DNA from: an uncultured Gemmiger sp.
GTDB taxonomy: Bacteria > Bacillota > Clostridia > Oscillospirales > Ruminococcaceae
NCBI GenBank assembly: GCA_944388245.1
Contig: CALXIA010000017.1
Span: 1 to 40,822, forward strand
Direction of reading: 5' to 3'
Length of the DNA stretch: 40,822 nt
Below the pieces are notes generated by a model. It saw only the letters and a list, made by a program, of their open reading frames with translations, did no database searches and was not told the origin of the DNA. Below, piece by piece: positions 2,933 to 24,198 of this stretch; position 1 is the stretch's first letter, and each line of letters begins with the position of its first letter. The translations under genes were made by a program, and so were the position numbers.

Positions 2933-3201
2933 CAAACCAGCAGATCCGCGTATTCCGGGTGAGTCTCAAACCAGCGCACCGCGTAGGAGCAGGTGGGCCG
3001 CGCCTTGCGGCCCTCAGCGCGCAGGGTGTCGGCGGCAGCCTTCAGCAGCTGCCCGGCCACCCCCTGCCCCCGCAGCGACGGGTCCACGAAGGTGTGGTCG
3101 ATCTCGGCCACGCCCTCCCGCTGGGGGAAGGTCACCTCGGCCAGCAGACGGCCGCTCTCATCCAGGGAAAAGATGCGGCCCGGTTCCTGACGAAATTCCA
3201 T
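2932..3201 (-). CDS. Small GNAT-type N-acetyltransferase (Acetyltransf_CG / YjdJ-like)
   Basis: A compact single-domain protein of 89 residues. The core HTFVDPSLRGQGVAGQLL carries the acetyl-CoA-binding R-G-Q-G-V-A signature, and the C-terminal PTCSYAVRWFETHPEYADLL matches the Cys-containing end of the small COG2388 GNAT subfamily. The substrate is unknown for most of this family. A GTG three codons upstream is possible, but the ATG at 3201 is preferred because GAGG sits 8 bases before it. It has its own promoter and terminator, so it is probably monocistronic. Confidence 0.8.
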   Translation of the reverse strand: MEFRQEPGRIFSLDESGRLLAEVTFPQREGVAEIDHTFVDPSLRGQGVAGQLLKAAADTLRAEGRKARPTCSYAVRWFETHPEYADLLV

Positions 3202-3261: not shown

Positions 3262-4599
3262 TTATCCCGCGGCCGTTACCTGATAGAGGGTCAGGCCGTT
3301 GTCGCCGGCGCACCAGTAGACCCAATCGCCTTCGGTCAGCGGCTCGGCCGGGTAGTAGACCGGGTACTCCGCCGCGTCCACGGCCTCTAGCTGAAGGATC
3401 TCGTTGCCGTCCTGATCCACAAAGCGGACGGGGGTCACCTCCTGGCCGGCGTCATTGTTGTAGAGGGTGCCCTTGGAAGCGCGCAGCAGCGGCGGGGTGG
3501 GCTGCTCTTCAAACTGGGCGTTGTACAGCCGAATGGCGCTGCTTCCCTGCACGCCGATGTACCGGTTGCCGCTCTCGTCCGGGTCGCTTACCATCCACAG
3601 ACCGGCCTCCAGCACCGGGTTGCCCTGCAGATCGGTGCCCACATCGTCCTGCAGTTCCTGGTCAAACAGAGCCAGCAGATCGCTCTGGAACAGGTCGATG
3701 CTCTCCGCGTCCACCGGCAGCTCGGCGCCGGTGCGGTCGTAGGCGACTCCGTTCAGCACGATGCCGCCCTCGTACAGGTCACAGGACGGCCAGGGGCAGT
3801 TGCCGATGCTGTAGGGTACGTCCGCCATCACCAGCGAGCCGTCCGCGTTGTACAGATCACCGTTATGGGTCTGCTCGTTCTCGATCATATAGTACCCCAA
3901 TTCCGGGTCTGCCCAGCCGACGTTCGAACTGGTGGCGATCACCTCGCCCTGGCTGTTGAAGATATCGTAGTAGCGGTAGATGCTGCCGGTACCGTTGGAT
4001 TCCTTGAACTCGTTACGCAAGCCGTACCCGACCTTGCCCAGCCAGCTGAGCTGGTCGTATACCGGCTCCACCACCATGTTGCCGTCCAGGTCGCTGTAGC
4101 CCCATTTGCCGTCCCGCAGGCAGGGTACCAGACCGTTGGAACCATAGCGGAAGGTGTGCCCCAGCCAGTAGATCTCCGACCGGCGGGAACTGCCAAAATC
4201 CGGATTGTAAAAATATGGGATCCCCACAAAGTCCACCTGGCTCAACTCATCCTGGGTGGCGGTGTACAGGGCCTTGAACTCGCCCGTTTCACTCAGATAC
4301 CCCGCCTGCCCGTCATTCTGGTAGACGAAGGCCCAGCCGTCAAAAAACGGGCTCACATGGTCGTAGCCGTCCAGCAGTGTGCTCTCGGTCAGGGTCAGGG
4401 AGCCCTCCACCGGCTGATCGGCAGTCAGCTGTTTGCCGGATGCGGCCGGTTCCGGGCTGGGGGTAGGCTCGGCCGAAGAGGCCGTCGGCGCCGATTCCGG
4501 CACCGATTCAGGTTGTGACAAAGGCTCGCCGGCGCAGGCGGCCAGCATGGCGCACAGGGTCGCCGCGCTGATCAGCCGAAGGATAGAAAGCTTTCGCAT
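3262..4599 (-). CDS. WG-repeat-containing lipoprotein
   Basis: This 445-residue protein starts with a lipoprotein signal peptide (MRKLSILRLISAATLCAMLAAC; lipobox LAAC, acylated Cys22), followed by a Ser/Pro/Glu-rich linker and a large extracytoplasmic domain. The domain contains WG-type repeats, for example GWAFVYQNDGQAGYLSETGEF and GKWGYSDLDGNMVVEPVYD, a beta-rich repeat of unknown biochemical role. The frame reaches a GTG four codons upstream; the ATG at 4599 is preferred for the signal peptide, with GAGGAG 11 bases before it. It is transcribed divergently from the BlaI-type repressor from a strong promoter flanked by dyads that also border the repressor's promoter, so it is probably part of that regulon. 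It could be a cell-envelope stress or structural lipoprotein; no enzymatic motif is seen. Confidence 0.8.
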   Translation of the reverse strand: MRKLSILRLISAATLCAMLAACAGEPLSQPESVPESAPTASSAEPTPSPEPAASGKQLTADQPVEGSLTLTESTLLDGYDHVSPFFDGWAFVYQNDGQAGYLSETGEFKALYTATQDELSQVDFVGIPYFYNPDFGSSRRSEIYWLGHTFRYGSNGLVPCLRDGKWGYSDLDGNMVVEPVYDQLSWLGKVGYGLRNEFKESNGTGSIYRYYDIFNSQGEVIATSSNVGWADPELGYYMIENEQTHNGDLYNADGSLVMADVPYSIGNCPWPSCDLYEGGIVLNGVAYDRTGAELPVDAESIDLFQSDLLALFDQELQDDVGTDLQGNPVLEAGLWMVSDPDESGNRYIGVQGSSAIRLYNAQFEEQPTPPLLRASKGTLYNNDAGQEVTPVRFVDQDGNEILQLEAVDAAEYPVYYPAEPLTEGDWVYWCAGDNGLTLYQVTAAG

Positions 4600-4630: not shown

Positions 4631-4646
4631 GATAAAAAATTTTATC
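4631..4646. promoter_or_regulatory. Candidate BlaI-type operator O1 (lipoprotein side)
   Basis: Perfect dyad GATAAAA-AA-TTTTATC. It lies a few bases downstream of the predicted transcription start of the WG lipoprotein and contains the half-site AAAAATTTTAT (4635-4645), shared with O2 and O3. Binding of a repressor here would block transcription or promoter escape. Confidence 0.55.
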
Positions 4647-4658
4647 ACGGTAAACAAA

Positions 4659-4687
4659 AGTATAGCGAAGACGGCCGGGAATGTCAA
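4659..4687 (-). promoter_or_regulatory. SigA promoter of the WG-repeat lipoprotein
   Basis: On the minus strand, TTGACA (4687-4682), exactly 17 bases, then TATACT (4664-4659). This is a near-consensus promoter with a start expected near 4652. Confidence 0.85.
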
Positions 4688-4688
4688 C

Positions 4689-4714
4689 AAAAATTTTATA
4701 AAAATAAAATTTTT
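4689..4714. promoter_or_regulatory. Candidate BlaI-type operator O2 (central)
   Basis: Perfect inverted repeat with 11-base arms, AAAAATTTTAT (4689-4699) and ATAAAATTTTT (4704-4714), separated by AAAA. It sits exactly between the two outward-facing -35 boxes of the divergent promoters. Confidence 0.6.
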
Positions 4715-4726
4715 CCACGGGAAGCC

Positions 4727-4755
4727 TTGACGGCATGGGCAAAACCGGGTAGACT
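4727..4755 (+). promoter_or_regulatory. SigA promoter of blaI-blaR1
   Basis: TTGACG (4727-4732), 17-base spacer, TAGACT (4750-4755). The start is expected near 4762, immediately before dyad O3. Confidence 0.75.
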
Positions 4756-4763
4756 AGAAGCAG

Positions 4764-4790
4764 AAAAATTTTATTTGAATAAATCTTTTT
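4764..4790. promoter_or_regulatory. Candidate BlaI-type operator O3 (repressor side)
   Basis: Half-site AAAAATTTTAT (4764-4774), a 4-base spacer, and an inverse arm ATAAATCTTTT (4779-4789) matching the O2 arm at 9 of 11 positions. It covers the predicted start region of the blaI transcript, which suggests autorepression. Confidence 0.55.
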
Positions 4791-4803: not shown

Positions 4804-5172
4804 GTGGATACACTCAAACTGTTTGACGCGGAATTGCTGGCAATGCAGTATATATGGGAGCATGAGCCGCTGCAGGCTGCCCGGATGGCGGATGATTTTC
4901 TGGAGCTGTACGGCTGGAAGAAGAGCACCACCTACATTGTGCTCAAGCGGCTGGAGAGCAAGGGCGCGATCCTGCGGGAAAAGCCCAAATACCAGGTCCG
5001 GGCGCTGGTCAGCCGGGAGCAGGTGCAGCACGCCGAAACCGCCAATCTGCTGGACAAGATGTTCGGCGGCAGCTTTACCAGCCTGTTTGCCAGCTTTTTG
5101 TCCTCCGATCGGGTGTCGGATACCACCCTGGCCGAATTGCGGACCCTGATCGAAGAGAAGCAGAAAAAGTGA
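4804..5172 (+). CDS. blaI: BlaI/MecI/CopY-family transcriptional repressor
   Basis: A 122-residue winged-helix repressor. The N-terminal DNA-binding part has the family pattern: helices around LFDAELLAMQYIWEHEPLQAA, then WKKSTTYIVLKRLESKGAILREK as recognition helix and wing. It is followed by a C-terminal dimerisation helix pair. Family knowledge: such repressors bind short dyads as dimers and are inactivated through the co-encoded BlaR1/MecR1 metalloprotease. The GTG at 4804 is chosen because GGAGG sits 7 bases before it. The promoter region has three related dyads, so it probably represses itself and the divergent WG lipoprotein. The cognate sensor follows 28 bases downstream but is interrupted by a stop codon. 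Confidence 0.88.
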   Translation: MDTLKLFDAELLAMQYIWEHEPLQAARMADDFLELYGWKKSTTYIVLKRLESKGAILREKPKYQVRALVSREQVQHAETANLLDKMFGGSFTSLFASFLSSDRVSDTTLAELRTLIEEKQKK

Positions 5173-5200: not shown

Positions 5201-6952
5201 ATGATGGGCGCGTTTTTCGCGGTGCTCAATATGAGCATCGCCTCCGCGGTGCTGCTGGTTCTGGCGCTGGTCTGGCGCTGGGCGCTGCGGCGGTACGGCA
5301 CGGCCGGGTTCCGGTATCTGGTGTGGCTGCCCTTTTTGTTCCGCCTGTTGATCCCCTATTCGCTGCCCAGCGGTCTGAGCGTATACAATCTGTTCCACGG
5401 CGGGCTGGAAAGCCCCGGCGGCACGCTGCTGAGCATGGTGTACCTGGATCCCTCCACCCTGCACGCGCAGTCGCTGGCTGCCGGGCAGGCCCTGGCGGAA
5501 AAGCAGCTGCAAACGGTGGGCTGACTGGTCTGGGCGGCGGGGGTCGGCCTGATGGTCGGCGCGTTCCTGCTGCGCTATCTGCGGCTGCGGCAGGCGCTGG
5601 CCACGGCGCTGCGTCTGCCGCAGGGGGAGACAGGCCCGCTGCTGGTCCGGGTGGGGCTGCGCCGTAAGGTGCCGGTGCTCTGCACCGGCGCGGTGCAGGG
5701 GCCGATCGTCTTCGGCATCCTCCATCCCCGGGTGCTGCTGCCCATCTCCCTGTGGCAACAGGACGCGGGGCGGGAGTATATCCTGCTGCACGAGTTTACC
5801 CACGTGCGCTGGGGCGACTATCTGCTTTTGATGGTCGGCAATCTGGCGGTGGCGCTGCACTGGTTCAACCCGTTTGTGTGGATCGCCCGGCGGATGATGG
5901 CCCAGGATGTGGAGCGTGCCTGCGACGCCCGGGTGTTGCAGCGGCTGGACGAGCGGGGCCAGCTGGCCTACGCCGAGACCCTGGTAAACTGGGCGGGGCG
6001 GCGTTCCGGCTGGGGGTCCTACGCGGCCTTCGGTGACCGGGACGTGGTCCGGCGGGTGCGGGGGGTCCTGGGCTGGAAACGGTTGCCCCGCTGGACGCAG
6101 ATTCTGCTGACCTGCGTTACGCTGGCGGTGTTCTTGTGCTCCGCCACCAATCCTGTGCTGCGCCAGGACGCCTACCTGCCGGTCTCGTCGCCCTTTGTGA
6201 GCGAGGCGGCCAAAGAGCAATTCCGTCAGGCAGCCTTTCGGCTGACCGACGCGCTGGAAAGCGCCGATCCGATGGCGCTGGCGGAACAGGCCAGCATGGA
6301 CCCGGCCTATTTTGCGCCGCTCTACGCCGATCTGGCCGATCTGCGGCTGACGGTGGACGGTATGCGGCTGTTCTGCAACAGCGCCGACGCGGCGGAATTG
6401 TATCTGCGGGTGACGGTGGAGGACGGCGCGGGGTTGTACCAGGCCGGCCAGGGCACACTGGTGGCGCATCTTGTCCGCACCGAGTACCGGGCCGAGCCGA
6501 TCGTGGATTGCCTGATGCCCCAGACCAAGTACGAGACCATGCGCCTGGCGGATACCGGCAGCGAAGCCGCCCGCCTGGCGGTGCGGCTGTGCGCGGATCT
6601 GGAGCCGGGGGACTTTGCGGCGAACAACATCTCCCCGGTGGCGGTGGCGCGGGTGTGCATGGCCAGCGCCATTGCGGACAAGGGGGAGAGCCCGCCCTTC
6701 TCCCAGAAGCGGATGGAACAGCTGGCCCGGGAATATTTTGCACTGGACAGCTTTTCCTGCCAGGATCCCTCGGTGTACGACCAGGCCACCGGCACCTACT
6801 TTTACCAGGAGACCCCCGAGGCGCGTATGTGTGTGACCCAGTGGGACGAGATGGGCGAGGGCCGGGTCCGGGTGACGGTGGAAAGCTATGAGGATCCGCT
6901 GTGCCTGTATCCGCAGCGCCGGCTGGAATGTGAAATGCAAAAAACAGGCTGA
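5201..6952 (+). pseudogene. blaR1: BlaR1/MecR1-type M56 sensor metallopeptidase, interrupted by in-frame TGA
   Basis: One continuous 583-codon frame with a single internal stop, TGA at 5522-5524 (codon 108), most simply a TGG-to-TGA change. Before it lie an ATG with GGAGG and two or three N-terminal membrane helices. After it the frame continues at once with another helix and the M56 zinc-protease core: the HEFTH motif (His197, Glu198, His201 counting through the stop), then GDYLLLMVGNLAVALHWFNPFVW and the downstream E-R-A-C-D segment. A final membrane helix near FLCSATNPV leads to a roughly 260-residue extracytoplasmic domain, not a recognisable penicillin-binding sensor. Family knowledge: signal binding activates the protease, which leads to loss of BlaI. 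With the stop, only a 107-residue fragment would be made unless there is readthrough, internal restart at 5552, or a sequence error. Confidence 0.8.
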
Positions 6953-6968: not shown

Positions 6969-6996
6969 GATAGAGAAGAACAAAAGGAGAATGACC

Positions 6997-9900
6997 ATGA
7001 AGCGATCTTTTGACCGGCTGTTGCGGCGGGTGGCCGCCGCAACACTGGGCGCCGCCCTGTTGTGGGGGGCGCTGGCCCCCGCCGCCACGGTGTGGGCGGA
7101 GGAGAGCCCGGTTCCCGCGGCGCAGACCGAACAAGCCGGCGCGGCGCAGGCCGATGCGACCGGCGAGCCGCAGGCCGGGGAAACCGAAACCGGCAGCGGG
7201 CAGGACCTGCTCCTGCTGTATGAGCATCAGACCGGCAATTCCGAAACGCCCTATGTGACCGATACCCTGCGGGACGGGGATACCATCCCGTTCTTTCAGC
7301 AGGTGTTCGGGGAGATCACCCTCTGCCGGGGGGACGCGGACCATCCGGTCCCGCTGAGCGAGACGACCGTCCAGCTGCTGCTGAACGGTTCGCCTGTGCC
7401 CGCGGAGGCGGTGCAGTTCGTGCCCCTGCATGAAAGCTATGCCCAGTATGGCGTGCAGGTTTCTGCCGATCCTCTGGGCCGCCTGCTGGGGCAGGCCAGC
7501 CCGAATTTCGGTATGGAACTGAAGCTGACCGCGGGCGGGGATAGCCTGACCATCTCGATCCCCAACGAGGGGGTCCAGGTCAGCGTGCCGGAATACGTCC
7601 AATCGCTGACCATAGAGAGCAGCGGGCCGGACCTGTACACGGCAAGCCTGTATCTGTTTGTGAGCGGTGATGTGCTGTACGGCATTTCCCCCAACATGGA
7701 CTGGATCGCTGCCAACATGCAGCTGACCGGGGATATCGCGGCCTATTTCACCGATCCCCGGGTGGGCGACAATTATGATCTGACCTTCAACGCCACCGAC
7801 AAGCTGGCGGAGCTGGAGGCACGCGAGACGGTGACCGGCCAGCTGACCTGGACCGGCAAGCTGGACCAGCAGCCGCACAGCCTGGCGGTGTCCTACACCA
7901 ACTCCGGCTGGTATGCCGGCTGGTACAGCTGCCTGAGCGCCGGCATCGAGCGTTGGTACACAGAACTTGGCCCCAACATCGAGGACCAGCTGATGGCGGG
8001 CCAGTCCGGCAGCTTCAAGCTGCGGCTGTATCCCCAGAACGCACGCCCCAACAGCGGCGGAGTGCCCCTTTCGCTGCAGGAGGAGTATCTGACCAAAGAC
8101 CTGCCGGCCGGCATGACCGCCACCCTGCAGCCGGACGGCGTGACGCTGCTGGTGGAATATACCCTGACCGGGCAGGACGTGCGGGACACCCCCTGGACCC
8201 TGACGGCGAATCTGCCGGGCATGAACAGCCCGGAGACGCTGGAGATCCGGGTGAAGCCCGCTCCTGCCTACTGGCTGGGCAGCTTCAATATGGACACTTC
8301 GCTGCCGCCCTATTCCTACCGGTACAGCAGCCTCACCAGCCTGCAGATCGACACCCTGTATGAGTACAACGCGGTGATCCCGCTGGTGGACGGCCGCCCC
8401 GCCGCCACCCGGGAGGAACTGGAGCAGAGCGGCATCACGGTGGCGGACAGCGCCGACCCGGACCTGATCCAGGCCGTGCCCCGGCAGCTGAACTTTACCG
8501 ACAGCATCGGCAAGACCAGCCAGGTGTGGGGCTTCTGCGTGAGCGCACTGGCGGAGAACGCCATGAACGAATCCCGTTCCCTGACCATTTTCCAGGGGGA
8601 TGAGACGATCGCCACACTGCCGTACAGCCTGAACGGCATGAACAACAACGGCTACCGCTGCACCGCCCTGCAAAGCGACAAGCTGGAGACCCTGCAGCTC
8701 AGCGATCAGGCCCGGCAGGGGACCATCTACGCGGTGAAGGACGACAGCGGCGCGGCCCTGCCGCTCACCGCCGCGCCCACCGTCACCGGCACGGCGGCGC
8801 AGAACCTGACGGTGGTCTGGAAAGAGGGCCTGTCCGGCTTCCGGGTGGACCGAAACGCCAACCAGGTGCCCGGCGAGGCCACGGTGGAGGTGCGCGTGGG
8901 GAACACGGTGCGCCGCATCGTCTATACCTTTATCCGGTATCCGGCGTCGGCCACCTATTACTCCAGCGGCCTGGACGGCTCCTACCGCAACTACACCGAA
9001 TCGCTGTAGTTCACCGGGGATCTGGCCGGCGTCAGCGGAAAAAATCCCCAGGCGGTGCAGACGGCCCGCTTCGTGGAGGACGGCAGCTTCGACCTCTATC
9101 TCTATTCCCAGCAGTACATCGCGGCGCAAAACATGGCGAACCCCACCGAGATGGGCCGCTACTACAGCTTTGCCGCCGAACTGGTGGACAGCATCCAGTT
9201 TTACACCTCCGACCCGGAGGTGCTGCGCATCGAGAAGCAGATCACCCATTCGGATGAGACCGACGGGGCGTTCCCGGGCAACGGCTATGCCAACCCGGAG
9301 GGCAACTGCTTCGGCGTGACCCTGACCCCCGGCGGCAAGAGCGGCAGCTGTGAGGTGTACGCGGAGATCCGGCTCAAGCGCCCCAGCGCCAACGACCCCT
9401 TCGGCTGCGATATGAGCAAGACCCCGGAAACTGTGACCATTGGCCATACCTTCACGGTCCAGTCCCGGGACGCGGCGGAGACCTATTACGCCGCCCCGGA
9501 TACCCTGCGGCAGGTGCTGGACAGCATCCCGGTGACCAGCACCCCGGTGCTGGTGCTGCTGGAGGGCGGGGACTATGCCATGGACCTGAACATCTCCGGC
9601 AAGAACCTGATCCTGCGCAGCGCCGACCCGGAAAATCCCGCCCGTTTCACCGGTGACCCGGACGCGGAGGGCGGTTTCATCATTCAGGTGAACGCCCCCT
9701 CCAGCAGCTTCGCGCTGGAAGATCTGGTGGTGGACGGCGGCGGCAAGCGGGGCGGCATCCAGCAGCTGGGGGATGAGTCGCAAGGCGTGCGGGTGCCCTT
9801 TACCATCCGCCGCTGCCAGATCCGCAACTGCACCACCGGCGTTTCGGGCCTGCTCATGGGCGGCCTGCGGCTGGAAAATACCCAGGTGGAAGCCTGCTCC

Positions 9901-11679
9901 GTCGGCGTGAACGGCGCCCTGCTGTATTACTGCACCCTGCAGAACAACGACATGGCGCTGGCCCAGGAGTACAACCTGAATATCACCCAGGACCTCACCG
10001 CCCGCTGGACCCGTTTTATGGATAACACCACCGACCTGGTCATCCTGACCGATACGATGGGCCAGGAGGCGTACACCGTAAACCTGCCCCAGAACTACTG
10101 GAACGGCAGTTCCACGCCCACCCTCAAGGTGCTGAAGCTGAGCGATACCAGCACCGAGCTGGAGAAAACGGTGAAGCTGTACACTTCGCCCTACTACATG
10201 GACGAATCGCTGACCACCCTGAACGTGGATATCAACACCACCCAGATGGAGAACGACACCCTGCTGCTGCCGGTGGAAAAGAGTGAGATCGGCGTGGGCG
10301 GCATGACCGTGGCGGCCGACGCGTTCGCCAACATTCAGCAGGCCGACAAGCCCGCCCAGTTCCCGATCCTGGGCACCGATTCCCGGGAGATGGCCCGCTG
10401 GAGTTTCGAGACCATCCAGGATACCACTATTGACACCAACCTGAACGTGGACACCGCCCTGTCGGACGGCGCCCAGGCCACGGTGGACAAGCTGCCCCAG
10501 AACGAACAGGACAAGGTGCTGCAGGAGGTCAATCTGAGCCATAACGGCCAGCTGCCTGGCCGGGCCACCCTGTCCATCAAGGCCACCCAGCTGCCCCAGG
10601 GCGGCGTGGACGCGCTGTACCTGTACTGGGTCAAGCCGGACGGCACCATCGTGCCCGCCGAGGTGGTGGACGTGCAGTACGACGCGGCCACCCAGTGCTA
10701 TGTGATCACGATCGATCATTGCTCGGAATACATCATCACCAACGGGAAGCTGGAGAATGTGGGGGAGGGCGGTTCTCCCACCGCCACGCCGGCGCCCAGC
10801 GCGGCCCCCACGGCCACCCCTGCGCCGACCGCCGCGCCCAGCGCGGCTCCGACCGCAACCCCGGCTGCGGGCGGCGGTAGCCAGCCGACGGCGACCCCGG
10901 CCCCCACCGCGGCCCCGGCCGCAAGCGCGACCCCGACCCCGGCGGCCATAGCCCGGCCGCGTCCCACCGCCACCGCGCAGCCCGCCCAGAGCGAGCTGAT
11001 CAGCGCGCAGCAGGTGATGGACGCCTTTAAGGATCAGCCGGAAGATGTGACCCTGGATGTGAGCGTCCAGAGCACCGTGAGCCAGAAAGCCTTTGAACTG
11101 CTGGCCAACCGGCCCGACGCCGAACTCCGGCTGGAGGGCGATGGCTATGCCTGGGTATTTACCGGCGGCACCATCCAGAGCGCGGAACTGCCCGACGGCG
11201 TGTTTGCCGCGGGCGTGACCCAGGGCGTGGACGATGACGCGGCCGCCCGGATCAGCCAGGTCGCCGCGGGCGCGCCCTGGTACGGCTTTGACACCGCCTT
11301 TTCCGGCCAGCTGCCCGGCCCCGCAAACCTGGAGATCGTGGTGAATACCACGGCCTTTGTGGGGATGCGCTGCGGGTTGTACTGGCTGCCCGAGGAGGGC
11401 GACGCGGAGCGTGTGGCCACCGTGGAGGTGGATGAAAACGGCCGCGTATCCCTGCCGCTGGAACACTGCTCGATCTATTTCCTGGTGACGGAGGAGCCGG
11501 TGGAGGACGTTGTGACCCCGCCCGCCGGTGAGGCGCCGACCCAGGACGCGGTGCAGACCCAGCCCCAGCCCGAAGCAGCCGGCGGATTCCCGCTGCTGCC
11601 GGTGGTGATCGGGATCGCCGTGGTGCTGGCAGGCGGACTGGCCGTGCTGGTCATTCGCCGGCGGCACAGCGGATCCTGA
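6997..11679 (+). pseudogene. Giant membrane-anchored surface protein with beta-helix region, interrupted by in-frame TAG
   Basis: A single 1560-codon frame broken only by TAG at 9007-9009 (codon 671); the same frame continues directly afterwards. The ATG at 6997 has GGAG 7 bases before it (an ATG at 6991 is too close). Residues 1-34 are a Sec signal peptide. Residues 35-850 are unrecognised beta-rich segments. Around 830-1030 there is a pectate-lyase-like beta-helix pattern (LILRSAD..., LEDLVVDGGGK..., IRRCQIRNCTTGVSG..., LENTQVEACSVGV...). A domain with a GQLPG...LYW...HCS.Y pattern occurs twice, near 1180-1250 and 1435-1505, on either side of a Pro/Ala/Thr linker. The C-terminus is a membrane helix (LLPVVIGIAVVLAGGLAVLVI) plus a basic tail. 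No sortase motif is seen. Likely an adhesin or envelope-structure protein. As read it is truncated at 670 residues and loses its anchor. Confidence 0.75.
10775..10985 (+). repeat. Pro/Ala/Thr-rich degenerate repeat linker
   Basis: Degenerate repeats encode P-T-A-T-P-A-P / P-S-A-A-P units joining the two GQLPG-containing domains of the surface protein. The composition resembles the lysozyme linker at the left edge of the window, consistent with a shared type of wall-spanning spacer in this organism. Confidence 0.65.
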
Positions 11680-22752: not shown

Positions 22753-24198
22753 ATGGAGACCACAAACAAACAGGCCGCGCTGGCGGCCATCGACCGGTAC
22801 GCCGACCTGCTGTGCGGCGTCAGCGACAAGATCTGGGATTTTGCGGAACTGAGCCTGCAGGAGAGCCGTTCGGCCGATCTGTATTGCGCCGAACTGGAAA
22901 AACTGGGCTTTACCGTAGAGCGGGGGATCGCCGGCATCGACACCGCCTTCTGCGCCAAATGGGGCAGTGGCAAGCCGGTGATCGGCATCCTGGCCGAGTA
23001 CGACGCGCTGAGCGGGCTGTCCCAGCAGGCGGGCAAGACCGAGCCGGTGCCCCGCACCCCGGGCGGCTGCGGCCACGGCTGCGGCCACAACCTGCTGGGG
23101 GCGGGCAGCATGGCCGCCGCCCTGGCCATCAAGGAATATCTGACCCTCACCGGCCATCCCGGCACGGTGGAATTCTACGGCTGCCCCGGCGAGGAGGGCG
23201 GCGCTGCCAAGGCCTTTATGGCCCGGGACAACATCTGGCGGCATCTGGACGCGGCCCTGACCTGGCACCCCGGCGAGGTGAACGAGGTGGTCACCGGGTC
23301 CTCCAACTCCTGCATCCAGACTCAATACTTCTTCCACGGGGTGGCGGCCCACGCGGCCGGCGCGCCGGAGCGGGGCCGCAGCGCCCTGGACGCGGTGGAA
23401 CTGATGAACATCGGGGTGCAGTTTTTGCGGGAGCACATGGGGGACAGGTGCCGGGTGCACTACGCCATCACCGACGCGGGCGGCCGCAGCCCCAACGTGG
23501 TGCAGGCCGAGGCCTCGGTGCTCTACATGGTCCGGTCCAACAAGGTGGCCGAGGCGGTGGAGCTGCAGAAGCGGGTGGATGACATCGCCGGCGGCGCCGC
23601 GCTCATGACCGGCACCACCCTGACCAAAAAATTTATCGACGGCCTGGCGGACACCGTCTCCAACCACACGCTGGAGAAGGTGCTGTACGCCAACTTCGAG
23701 ACCCTGGGGGTGCCGCAGCACACCCCGGAGGAACTGGCCTTTGCCGACGCGCTGGCGGCTACCTGCCCGGCGGGGGCGCGGGATTCCGGCATCGGCGCCC
23801 ACCACAGCGAGGAGATCGCCCGGCAGGTGCGGCAGCTGCAAAAGCAGGCCGGCCACGCCATGAACGATTTCCTGGCCCCCTACTACGACGGCCCGGCCTT
23901 TGAGCCCGGCTCCACCGACGTGGGGGATGTAAGCTGGCAGACCCCCACCGGCCAGATCCATCTGGCCGCCTGGCCTGCCGGCACCCCCGGCCACAGCTGG
24001 CAGGCGGTCAGCTGCGGCACCACCGGCCTGGCCCACAAGGCCCTGCTGCAGGCAGGCCGGGTGCTGGCCGCCGCCGCCATCGACCTGTACGAGCAGCCGG
24101 AGACCCTGGCCGCCGCCCGGGCCGAGTTTGAGACCGCCACCGCCGGCGGTTATGTATGCCCCATCCCGCCGGACGCAGTTCCCACCCTGGTGGACTGA
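22753..24198 (+). CDS. M20D-family amidohydrolase (AbgB-like)
   Basis: A 481-residue cytoplasmic metallohydrolase of the p-aminobenzoyl-glutamate hydrolase subunit B type. Metal-site motifs are visible: GCGHGCGHNLLG (Cys/His), CPGEEGGAAKAFM (catalytic Glu-Glu), TWHPG and a C-terminal TPGHSW. The central lid domain lies at about residues 200-320. It starts 22 bases after the importer ATPase gene and is most likely in its operon, so it probably cleaves an imported acyl- or aryl-amino acid or small peptide to release an amino acid. The true substrate is unknown. AbgB acts with AbgA in E. coli; no AbgA is present here. Confidence 0.88.
   Translation: METTNKQAALAAIDRYADLLCGVSDKIWDFAELSLQESRSADLYCAELEKLGFTVERGIAGIDTAFCAKWGSGKPVIGILAEYDALSGLSQQAGKTEPVPRTPGGCGHGCGHNLLGAGSMAAALAIKEYLTLTGHPGTVEFYGCPGEEGGAAKAFMARDNIWRHLDAALTWHPGEVNEVVTGSSNSCIQTQYFFHGVAAHAAGAPERGRSALDAVELMNIGVQFLREHMGDRCRVHYAITDAGGRSPNVVQAEASVLYMVRSNKVAEAVELQKRVDDIAGGAALMTGTTLTKKFIDGLADTVSNHTLEKVLYANFETLGVPQHTPEELAFADALAATCPAGARDSGIGAHHSEEIARQVRQLQKQAGHAMNDFLAPYYDGPAFEPGSTDVGDVSWQTPTGQIHLAAWPAGTPGHSWQAVSCGTTGLAHKALLQAGRVLAAAAIDLYEQPETLAAARAEFETATAGGYVCPIPPDAVPTLVD

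Follow-up and report, generated by a model that had tools for sequence, protein, structure and literature searches.

A predicted BlaI operator regulon joining a BlaI/M56 operon to WG-repeat lipoproteins in Gemmiger and related genomes

The stretch analysed here, 40,822 nucleotides from an uncultured Gemmiger sp. (contig C17 of genome G000; below, the window), carries a gene for a WG-repeat lipoprotein (WG1) on the minus strand, divergent from plus-strand genes for a BlaI-family repressor, an M56 membrane protease and a giant secreted-type protein, in that order. Three copies of one dyad operator lie between the two gene groups, and sites of the same type occur at the promoters of BlaI, WG and giant-protein genes in related genomes. 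From this sequence evidence we consider it very probable that the locus encodes a BlaI/operator switch acting on its own operon and on WG lipoproteins, relieved by the M56 protease. It would represent a conserved predicted regulon and a new variant of BlaI/M56 control. The window genome (1.97 megabases in 64 contigs, 75.3% complete) belongs to the same genus as two of the compared genomes, G001 and G003; some of the compared genomes are incomplete as well.

In the proposed mechanism, a dimer of the BlaI-family protein would bind 18-base-pair operators of the form ATTTTAT-N4-ATAAAAT. Because these sites lie between the -35 boxes and at or just past each start, a bound repressor would shut off the promoter of its own BlaI-M56-giant operon as well as that of the divergent lipoprotein gene. 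The signal sensed by the M56 protease would be extracytoplasmic and is probably a ligand of envelope or glycan type, not a beta-lactam; on sensing it, the protease would inactivate BlaI, so that the WG lipoproteins and the giant protein are switched on together. An initial annotation of this DNA had proposed that one repressor silences both its own operon and the lipoprotein. Comparison of relatives supports the view that one operator type serves both; repression itself, like BlaI binding, M56 cleavage and the signal, we infer.

The operator array of the divergent promoter

Both outward-facing promoters of the initial annotation were recovered by a promoter scan, with the same boxes and 17-base spacers, and match 11 of 12 (minus strand) and 9 of 12 (plus strand) consensus positions. 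The scan also returned a third promoter-like match on the plus strand (4681-4710), and all transcription starts in the window are predicted. Between the -35 boxes lies the perfect dyad with 11-base-pair arms that had been described there, AAAAATTTTAT-AAAA-ATAAAATTTTT (4689-4714, no mismatches). With up to three mismatches allowed, the only other copy in the window is at 4764-4789 (two mismatches), against a shuffle mean of 0.00. The half-site AAAAATTTTAT occurs exactly three times in direct orientation (4635, 4689, 4764) and once inverted (4704), with 0.01 expected; this is the tally first given, but its span is 140 bases instead of 130. Allowing one mismatch adds a fifth half-site at 23626.

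The unit conserved among relatives is the 18-mer ATTTTAT-N4-ATAAAAT, which at up to three mismatches has exactly three sites in the window (Table 1), compared with a shuffle mean of 0.06; none of 100 shuffles reached three. These sites flank and separate the two promoters, one lying between the -35 boxes and one at or just past each predicted start. Related dyads had been placed past both starts, and sites are indeed found on both sides. On the WG side, however, the dyad GATAAAA-AA-TTTTATC (4631-4646) is spaced differently from the neighbouring 18-mer and out of register with it, and relatives match the 18-mer. The motif had also been set apart from the TACA/TGTA core of BlaI/MecI operators. 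In agreement with this, TACANNTGTA is absent from the promoter, and at up to one mismatch it occurs twice elsewhere in the window, for 2.16 expected.

Conservation of the operators and their target genes

A search of 396 genomes of the family for close relatives of the window BlaI (expect value, E, up to 1e-38) gave 15 genes in 12 genomes, the window gene included; we refer to these as clade BlaIs. The initial annotation had named conservation of the dyads and the gene pair in sister genomes as its check, and the layout does recur in the divergent promoters of four relatives: BlaI faces WG1 in G003 (four sites), G001:C23 and G244, as in the window, and in G260:C75 WG1 faces the M56 and giant genes instead. 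When the five divergent promoters were aligned, operators and promoter boxes stood out as conserved islands while neighbouring bases diverged. The WG-side position holds sites with zero to two mismatches in G003, G001, G244, G260, G170, G192 and G357.

At the BlaI promoters, which in the window carry a predicted dyad operator of their own, a site is present in 10 of the 15 cases at up to one mismatch, in 11 at up to two and in 14 at up to three. The branch nearest the window (G003, G033, G001:C23, G170, G244) has a site preceding the -35 box and another following the start, and it keeps the BlaI-side position with zero to three mismatches. In the second branch a single site closely follows the start; it has no mismatch in G229, one in G001:C7 and G260, and three in G357, G192 and G313. 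Four of these loci (G001:C7, G357, G192, G229) contain an extra site between the M56 and giant genes, just past a stretch that looks promoter-like by eye.

A search for WG1 covered the 12 genomes with a clade BlaI and two without one, 14 in all; the gene was found in eight, the window genome included, and all eight are among the 12. A sample of 100 relatives yielded WG1 in three, each with a clade BlaI. The gene lies elsewhere, apart from BlaI, in G170, G192 and G357, and four of the eight homologues in total are not beside BlaI. The operators stay with the gene all the same: all eight WG1 promoters have at least one site at up to one mismatch and at least two at up to three, and by eye one precedes the -35 box and another follows the -10 box. 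A comparable separation is seen in G260, where the only close BlaI recovered is on contig C25 and the M56, giant and WG1 genes are on C75. No M56 or giant gene was found in the 14 kilobases fetched around this BlaI, and the arrangement appears to be a split system kept together by its operators.

By profile search WG1 matches the family PF14903 (WG_beta_rep) in one stretch, with 33.7 bits for a cut-off of 25.6; its homologues at L038, L040 and L057 score 27.8, 25.3 (just under the cut-off) and 40.4 bits. The lipoprotein assignment is a prediction from a lipobox-like LAAC seen by eye, and the structure model is poor (predicted local distance difference test score, pLDDT, 52.0). A second WG family of about 840 to 890 residues is present in five of the 14 genomes, with six genes besides two weak partial matches. 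Three of them (G003:C45, G357:C100, G357:C27) have a site at up to one mismatch. Of the others, the one in G244 is the second gene after WG1, and the one in G033 belongs to the BlaI operon, where it follows the giant gene; the one in G170:C12 has an internal stop, and its lone three-mismatch match, which breaks the arms, is not worth claiming. In G003:C45 (L099), the second-family gene, unlinked to BlaI, is preceded by a perfect 36-base palindrome (3110-3145) that contains the operator and lies over a stretch that by eye resembles a -10 box. A crude WG-motif regular expression, applied to 19 loci of 8-20 kilobases (18 around other BlaIs, L051 not included, plus L042), gave one weak match, in L042. 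The WG link therefore looks confined to this BlaI clade, although distant WG genes would be missed at this locus size.

The initial annotation had cast the WG lipoprotein as the output gene of the circuit. Sites at all eight WG1 promoters agree with such a role, but it is not the sole output: the giant protein, encoded in the same operon, is another predicted target, and it has its own site in the four loci named above. Giant-protein homologues were found in four of 100 relatives, exactly the four with a clade BlaI. The protein has a signal-like start and, at its end, a hydrophobic stretch with basic residues (by eye); its matches to DUF4957 and to a pectate-lyase-like model are weak and below cut-offs.

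Site counts give a similar picture. In 24 promoter intervals (6,112 bases from 20 fetched loci, leaving out L042 and five loci around possible off-target sites, L100-L104) there are 33 sites at up to one mismatch, and none in the 291,977 other bases; 1000 mononucleotide shuffles of the intervals gave a mean of 0.011 sites and a maximum of 1. The interval boundaries were drawn with the sites already in view, and the fairer number is the genome-wide tally, in which 33 of 45 sites at up to one mismatch in the 12 clade genomes lie at BlaI, WG or giant-protein promoters (11 of 13 in G000, G001, G003 and G033; 22 of 32 in the other eight). An operator consensus table built from sites picked by the same pattern is circular and serves as description only. 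Isolated operator-like sites at G003:C44, G002:C41, G002:C2 and G001:C34 lie in or near unrelated genes and are not claimed. In G033:C3 (L100), a one-mismatch operator (5486-5503) covers a plausible promoter of an 1118-residue secreted-type protein, a possible further member of the regulon that was counted as off target.

Table 1. Features of the switch locus in the window
Feature	Position	Strand	Basis
WG-repeat lipoprotein gene WG1, 445 residues, predicted target	3262..4599	-	PF14903; lipobox-like LAAC by eye
WG-side operator, weak, three mismatches, overlaps predicted WG1 start site	4639..4656		Pattern scan
Predicted sigma-70 promoter of WG1, TTGACA-17-TATACT	4659..4687	-	Promoter scan; region conserved in five-promoter alignment
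Central operator, perfect ATTTTATAAAAATAAAAT, between both -35 boxes	4693..4710		Pattern scan; in 5 of 5 aligned divergent promoters
Predicted sigma-70 promoter of BlaI operon, TTGACG-17-TAGACT	4727..4755	+	Promoter scan
BlaI-side operator, two mismatches, just past predicted start site	4768..4785		Pattern scan; counterparts in relatives
BlaI-family repressor, 122 residues, GTG start	4804..5172	+	PF03965 profile match
M56 (BlaR1-like) membrane protease gene, broken by in-frame TGA	5201..6952	+	PF05569; HEFTH
Putative sensor domain, extracytoplasmic part of the M56 protein; by sequence not of penicillin-binding type	6146..6949	+	Sequence and model
Giant secreted-type protein gene, broken by in-frame TAG	6991..11679	+	Homologues; 1562 residues in G003

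A scan of the window returned no tRNA and no Rfam match at gathering score.

Repressor, sensor and alternative explanations

The window BlaI is a clear member of PF03965 (Penicillinase_R; 77.2 bits, cut-off 22.6) and can be aligned with MecI structures (E 1.6e-9). It falls under the cut-offs of the resistance-type BlaI/MecI models (NCBIfam exception models; 59.1 bits against 180, and 36.9, 22.9 and 22.4 against 250) and of the CopY/TcrY model TIGR02698 (45.5 against 121.95). The segment that we took as the putative recognition helix, KKSTTYIVLKRL, is found in 13 of the 15 clade BlaIs and with one change in the other two, in a comparison that omits a BlaI relative with an internal stop (L036). 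Among 27 BlaIs outside the clade, several with NKNTTYT-like segments show ACTAT-N4-ATAGT dyads and two with KKPTTYTVLRK show GTTTAT-N4-ATAAAC, and the operator type therefore seems to follow the helix. GTTTAT-N4-ATAAAC dyads, an intermediate operator type, stand at the own promoters of the distant BlaIs L021 (G052:C27, 45% identity) and L031 (G044:C22, 39%). TTTAT half-sites thus do not appear to be private to this clade; in nine more distant BlaI loci (37-44% identity) no perfect TTTAT-N4-ATAAA was found upstream, and one lies 3.7 kilobases downstream in L061.

The protease part of the M56 protein appears ordinary. Its HEXXH motif reads HEFTH. Searched apart against PF05569, the first piece scores 28.6 bits, short of the cut-off of 31, and the second 105.7 bits; L038 and L040 are among the relatives in which the gene is not interrupted. 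The sensor part is different. The C-terminal extracytoplasmic domain, considered together with six homologues, contains no SxxK motif and has no Pfam match, including none to a transpeptidase family. For an intact homologue (L053), the match to the generic BlaR1 profile is confined to positions 6-275 of 585 and reaches 105.9 bits, below the cut-off of 400; that of the window piece is confined to 153-274. In a model of medium confidence, the first half of the domain looks NTF2-like; it also resembles residues 38-158 of PBP5, which are not the penicillin-binding part of that protein. An NTF2 domain of Campylobacter Pgp2 reportedly binds peptidoglycan (PMC8038945), and by this analogy an envelope ligand is a fair guess for the M56 sensor, but no more. 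The penicillin-type sensing put forward in the initial annotation, and with it the candidate reading of this domain as a beta-lactam sensor, thus finds no support in the sequence.

Antibiotic sensing is the usual interpretation of BlaI/M56 pairs. A true beta-lactam circuit, with penicillin acting on the M56 protein and WG1 as a resistance or wall-repair output, is nevertheless improbable here in view of the sensor domain just described. Still less credible is that the dyads are UP-element-like or bendable promoter DNA with chance symmetry. They are A/T-rich and adjoin promoters, as this would predict, but their spacing and arms are conserved while their neighbours diverge, the -10 box precedes several of them, unlinked WG genes carry them too, and the promoter shuffles yield next to none. 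A different possibility accepts the operators as real and assigns them in this strain mainly to another binder, either one of the C1 paralogues or a number of BlaIs acting jointly. Of the three clade BlaIs in G000, the two on C1 (61-62% identity to the window BlaI) have a helix segment that is identical to that of the window protein or almost so, and one has a two-mismatch site in its own promoter. We nonetheless judge this unlikely: ten genomes (G003, G033, G170, G192, G229, G244, G260, G297, G313, G357) have a single clade BlaI, and nine of them, all but G313, have an on-target site at up to one mismatch. At L042 on C1, two clade BlaI genes are convergent (7623-8722), and one of their promoters has by eye a TTTACAC/GTGTAAA-like dyad, not a TTTTAT operator; no M56 relative was found in this 16.5-kilobase locus.

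Several observations count against the switch as proposed. Five of the 15 clade BlaI promoters have no site at up to one mismatch, and one of them, on C1 of the window genome, has none even at three; either of the C1 BlaIs could be the binder. Of the six WG genes in the second family, only three are preceded by their own site. In G297 a BlaI and a perfect site are present, but none of the M56, giant and WG1 genes was found to go with them, and G313 has no on-target site at up to one mismatch. Off-target sites make up 12 of the 45 found genome-wide; in the eight other clade genomes there are 10 of them, compared with 13 for a reversed control pattern. G002, a genome without a clade BlaI, holds one site at up to one mismatch, and in ten more genomes that lack a close BlaI the count is 44, compared with 27 for the reversed pattern. 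A lone site is therefore weak evidence, and it is on clusters and gene context that the argument rests. Binding, repression, induction and the functions of the outputs are predictions from sequence. Finally, induction in this strain is doubtful because the M56 gene is interrupted, by an in-frame TGA at 5522-5524; an in-frame TAG interrupts the giant gene at 9007-9009. The stops may reflect a switch that is locked or decaying, or a misreading by the assembly; if they are real, the M56 protein of this strain may have lost the ability to relieve the repressor. Relatives also have uninterrupted copies. In G001:C23 (L040) the giant gene contains a single TAG, differently placed, and in G170 (L055) separate parts of this gene lie in different frames.

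Taken with these reservations, the predicted BlaI regulon points to envelope outputs and to a sensor that lacks a penicillin-binding domain, and its operator predicts which unlinked WG and giant-protein genes are co-regulated. We lean, by a narrow margin, towards the broader view that a BlaI/M56 branch of gut Oscillospiraceae is an envelope switch with a non-beta-lactam (NTF2-like) sensor, its own TTTTAT-N4-ATAAAA operator class and a dispersed WG/giant-protein regulon. If so, WG-repeat proteins would gain a defined regulatory context, and BlaI circuits would have a role in surface remodelling apart from antibiotics and copper.

Comparison with known BlaI-type systems

No such regulon was described in the literature searched, which comprised titles and the starts of abstracts, with most subscription journals outside it. 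The BlaI/MecI-BlaR1/MecR1 systems of staphylococci and bacilli resemble the window locus in that a repressor adjoins an M56 protease with HEXXH and dyad operators stand at its own promoter. They differ in their TACA/TGTA operator core, as given in PMC7253601, for which the window has TTTTAT-N4-ATAAAA; by sequence, the window M56 protein also lacks the penicillin-binding sensor domain of BlaR1/MecR1, and the outputs predicted here comprise a giant secreted-type protein besides the WG lipoproteins. The CopY/CopR copper repressors treated in the same source are homologous to the window BlaI, which matches TIGR02698 weakly and below its cut-off, and they too have dyad operators, with the consensus RNYKACANNYGTMRNY.

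The nearest precedent comes from Clostridium thermocellum, in a study that also reads BlaI/M56 pairs as antibiotic sensors (PMC8457756). Its BlaIs bind GTCTAT/GACTAT motifs, as seen by gel shift, which provides a precedent for BlaI operators outside the TACA type; one of them, BlaI_0696, has peaks before three genes, its own included. The two systems share autoregulation, small regulons, half-sites that end in TAT and are not of the TACA type, and several dyads in ordered array at each promoter. They are distinguished by the half-site itself, TTTTAT here and CTAT there, and by their targets, which in C. thermocellum are BlaR1s, hypothetical proteins and a putative peptidoglycan gene, with KWG absent from the main text of PMC8457756, and here are predicted to be WG lipoproteins and the giant protein.
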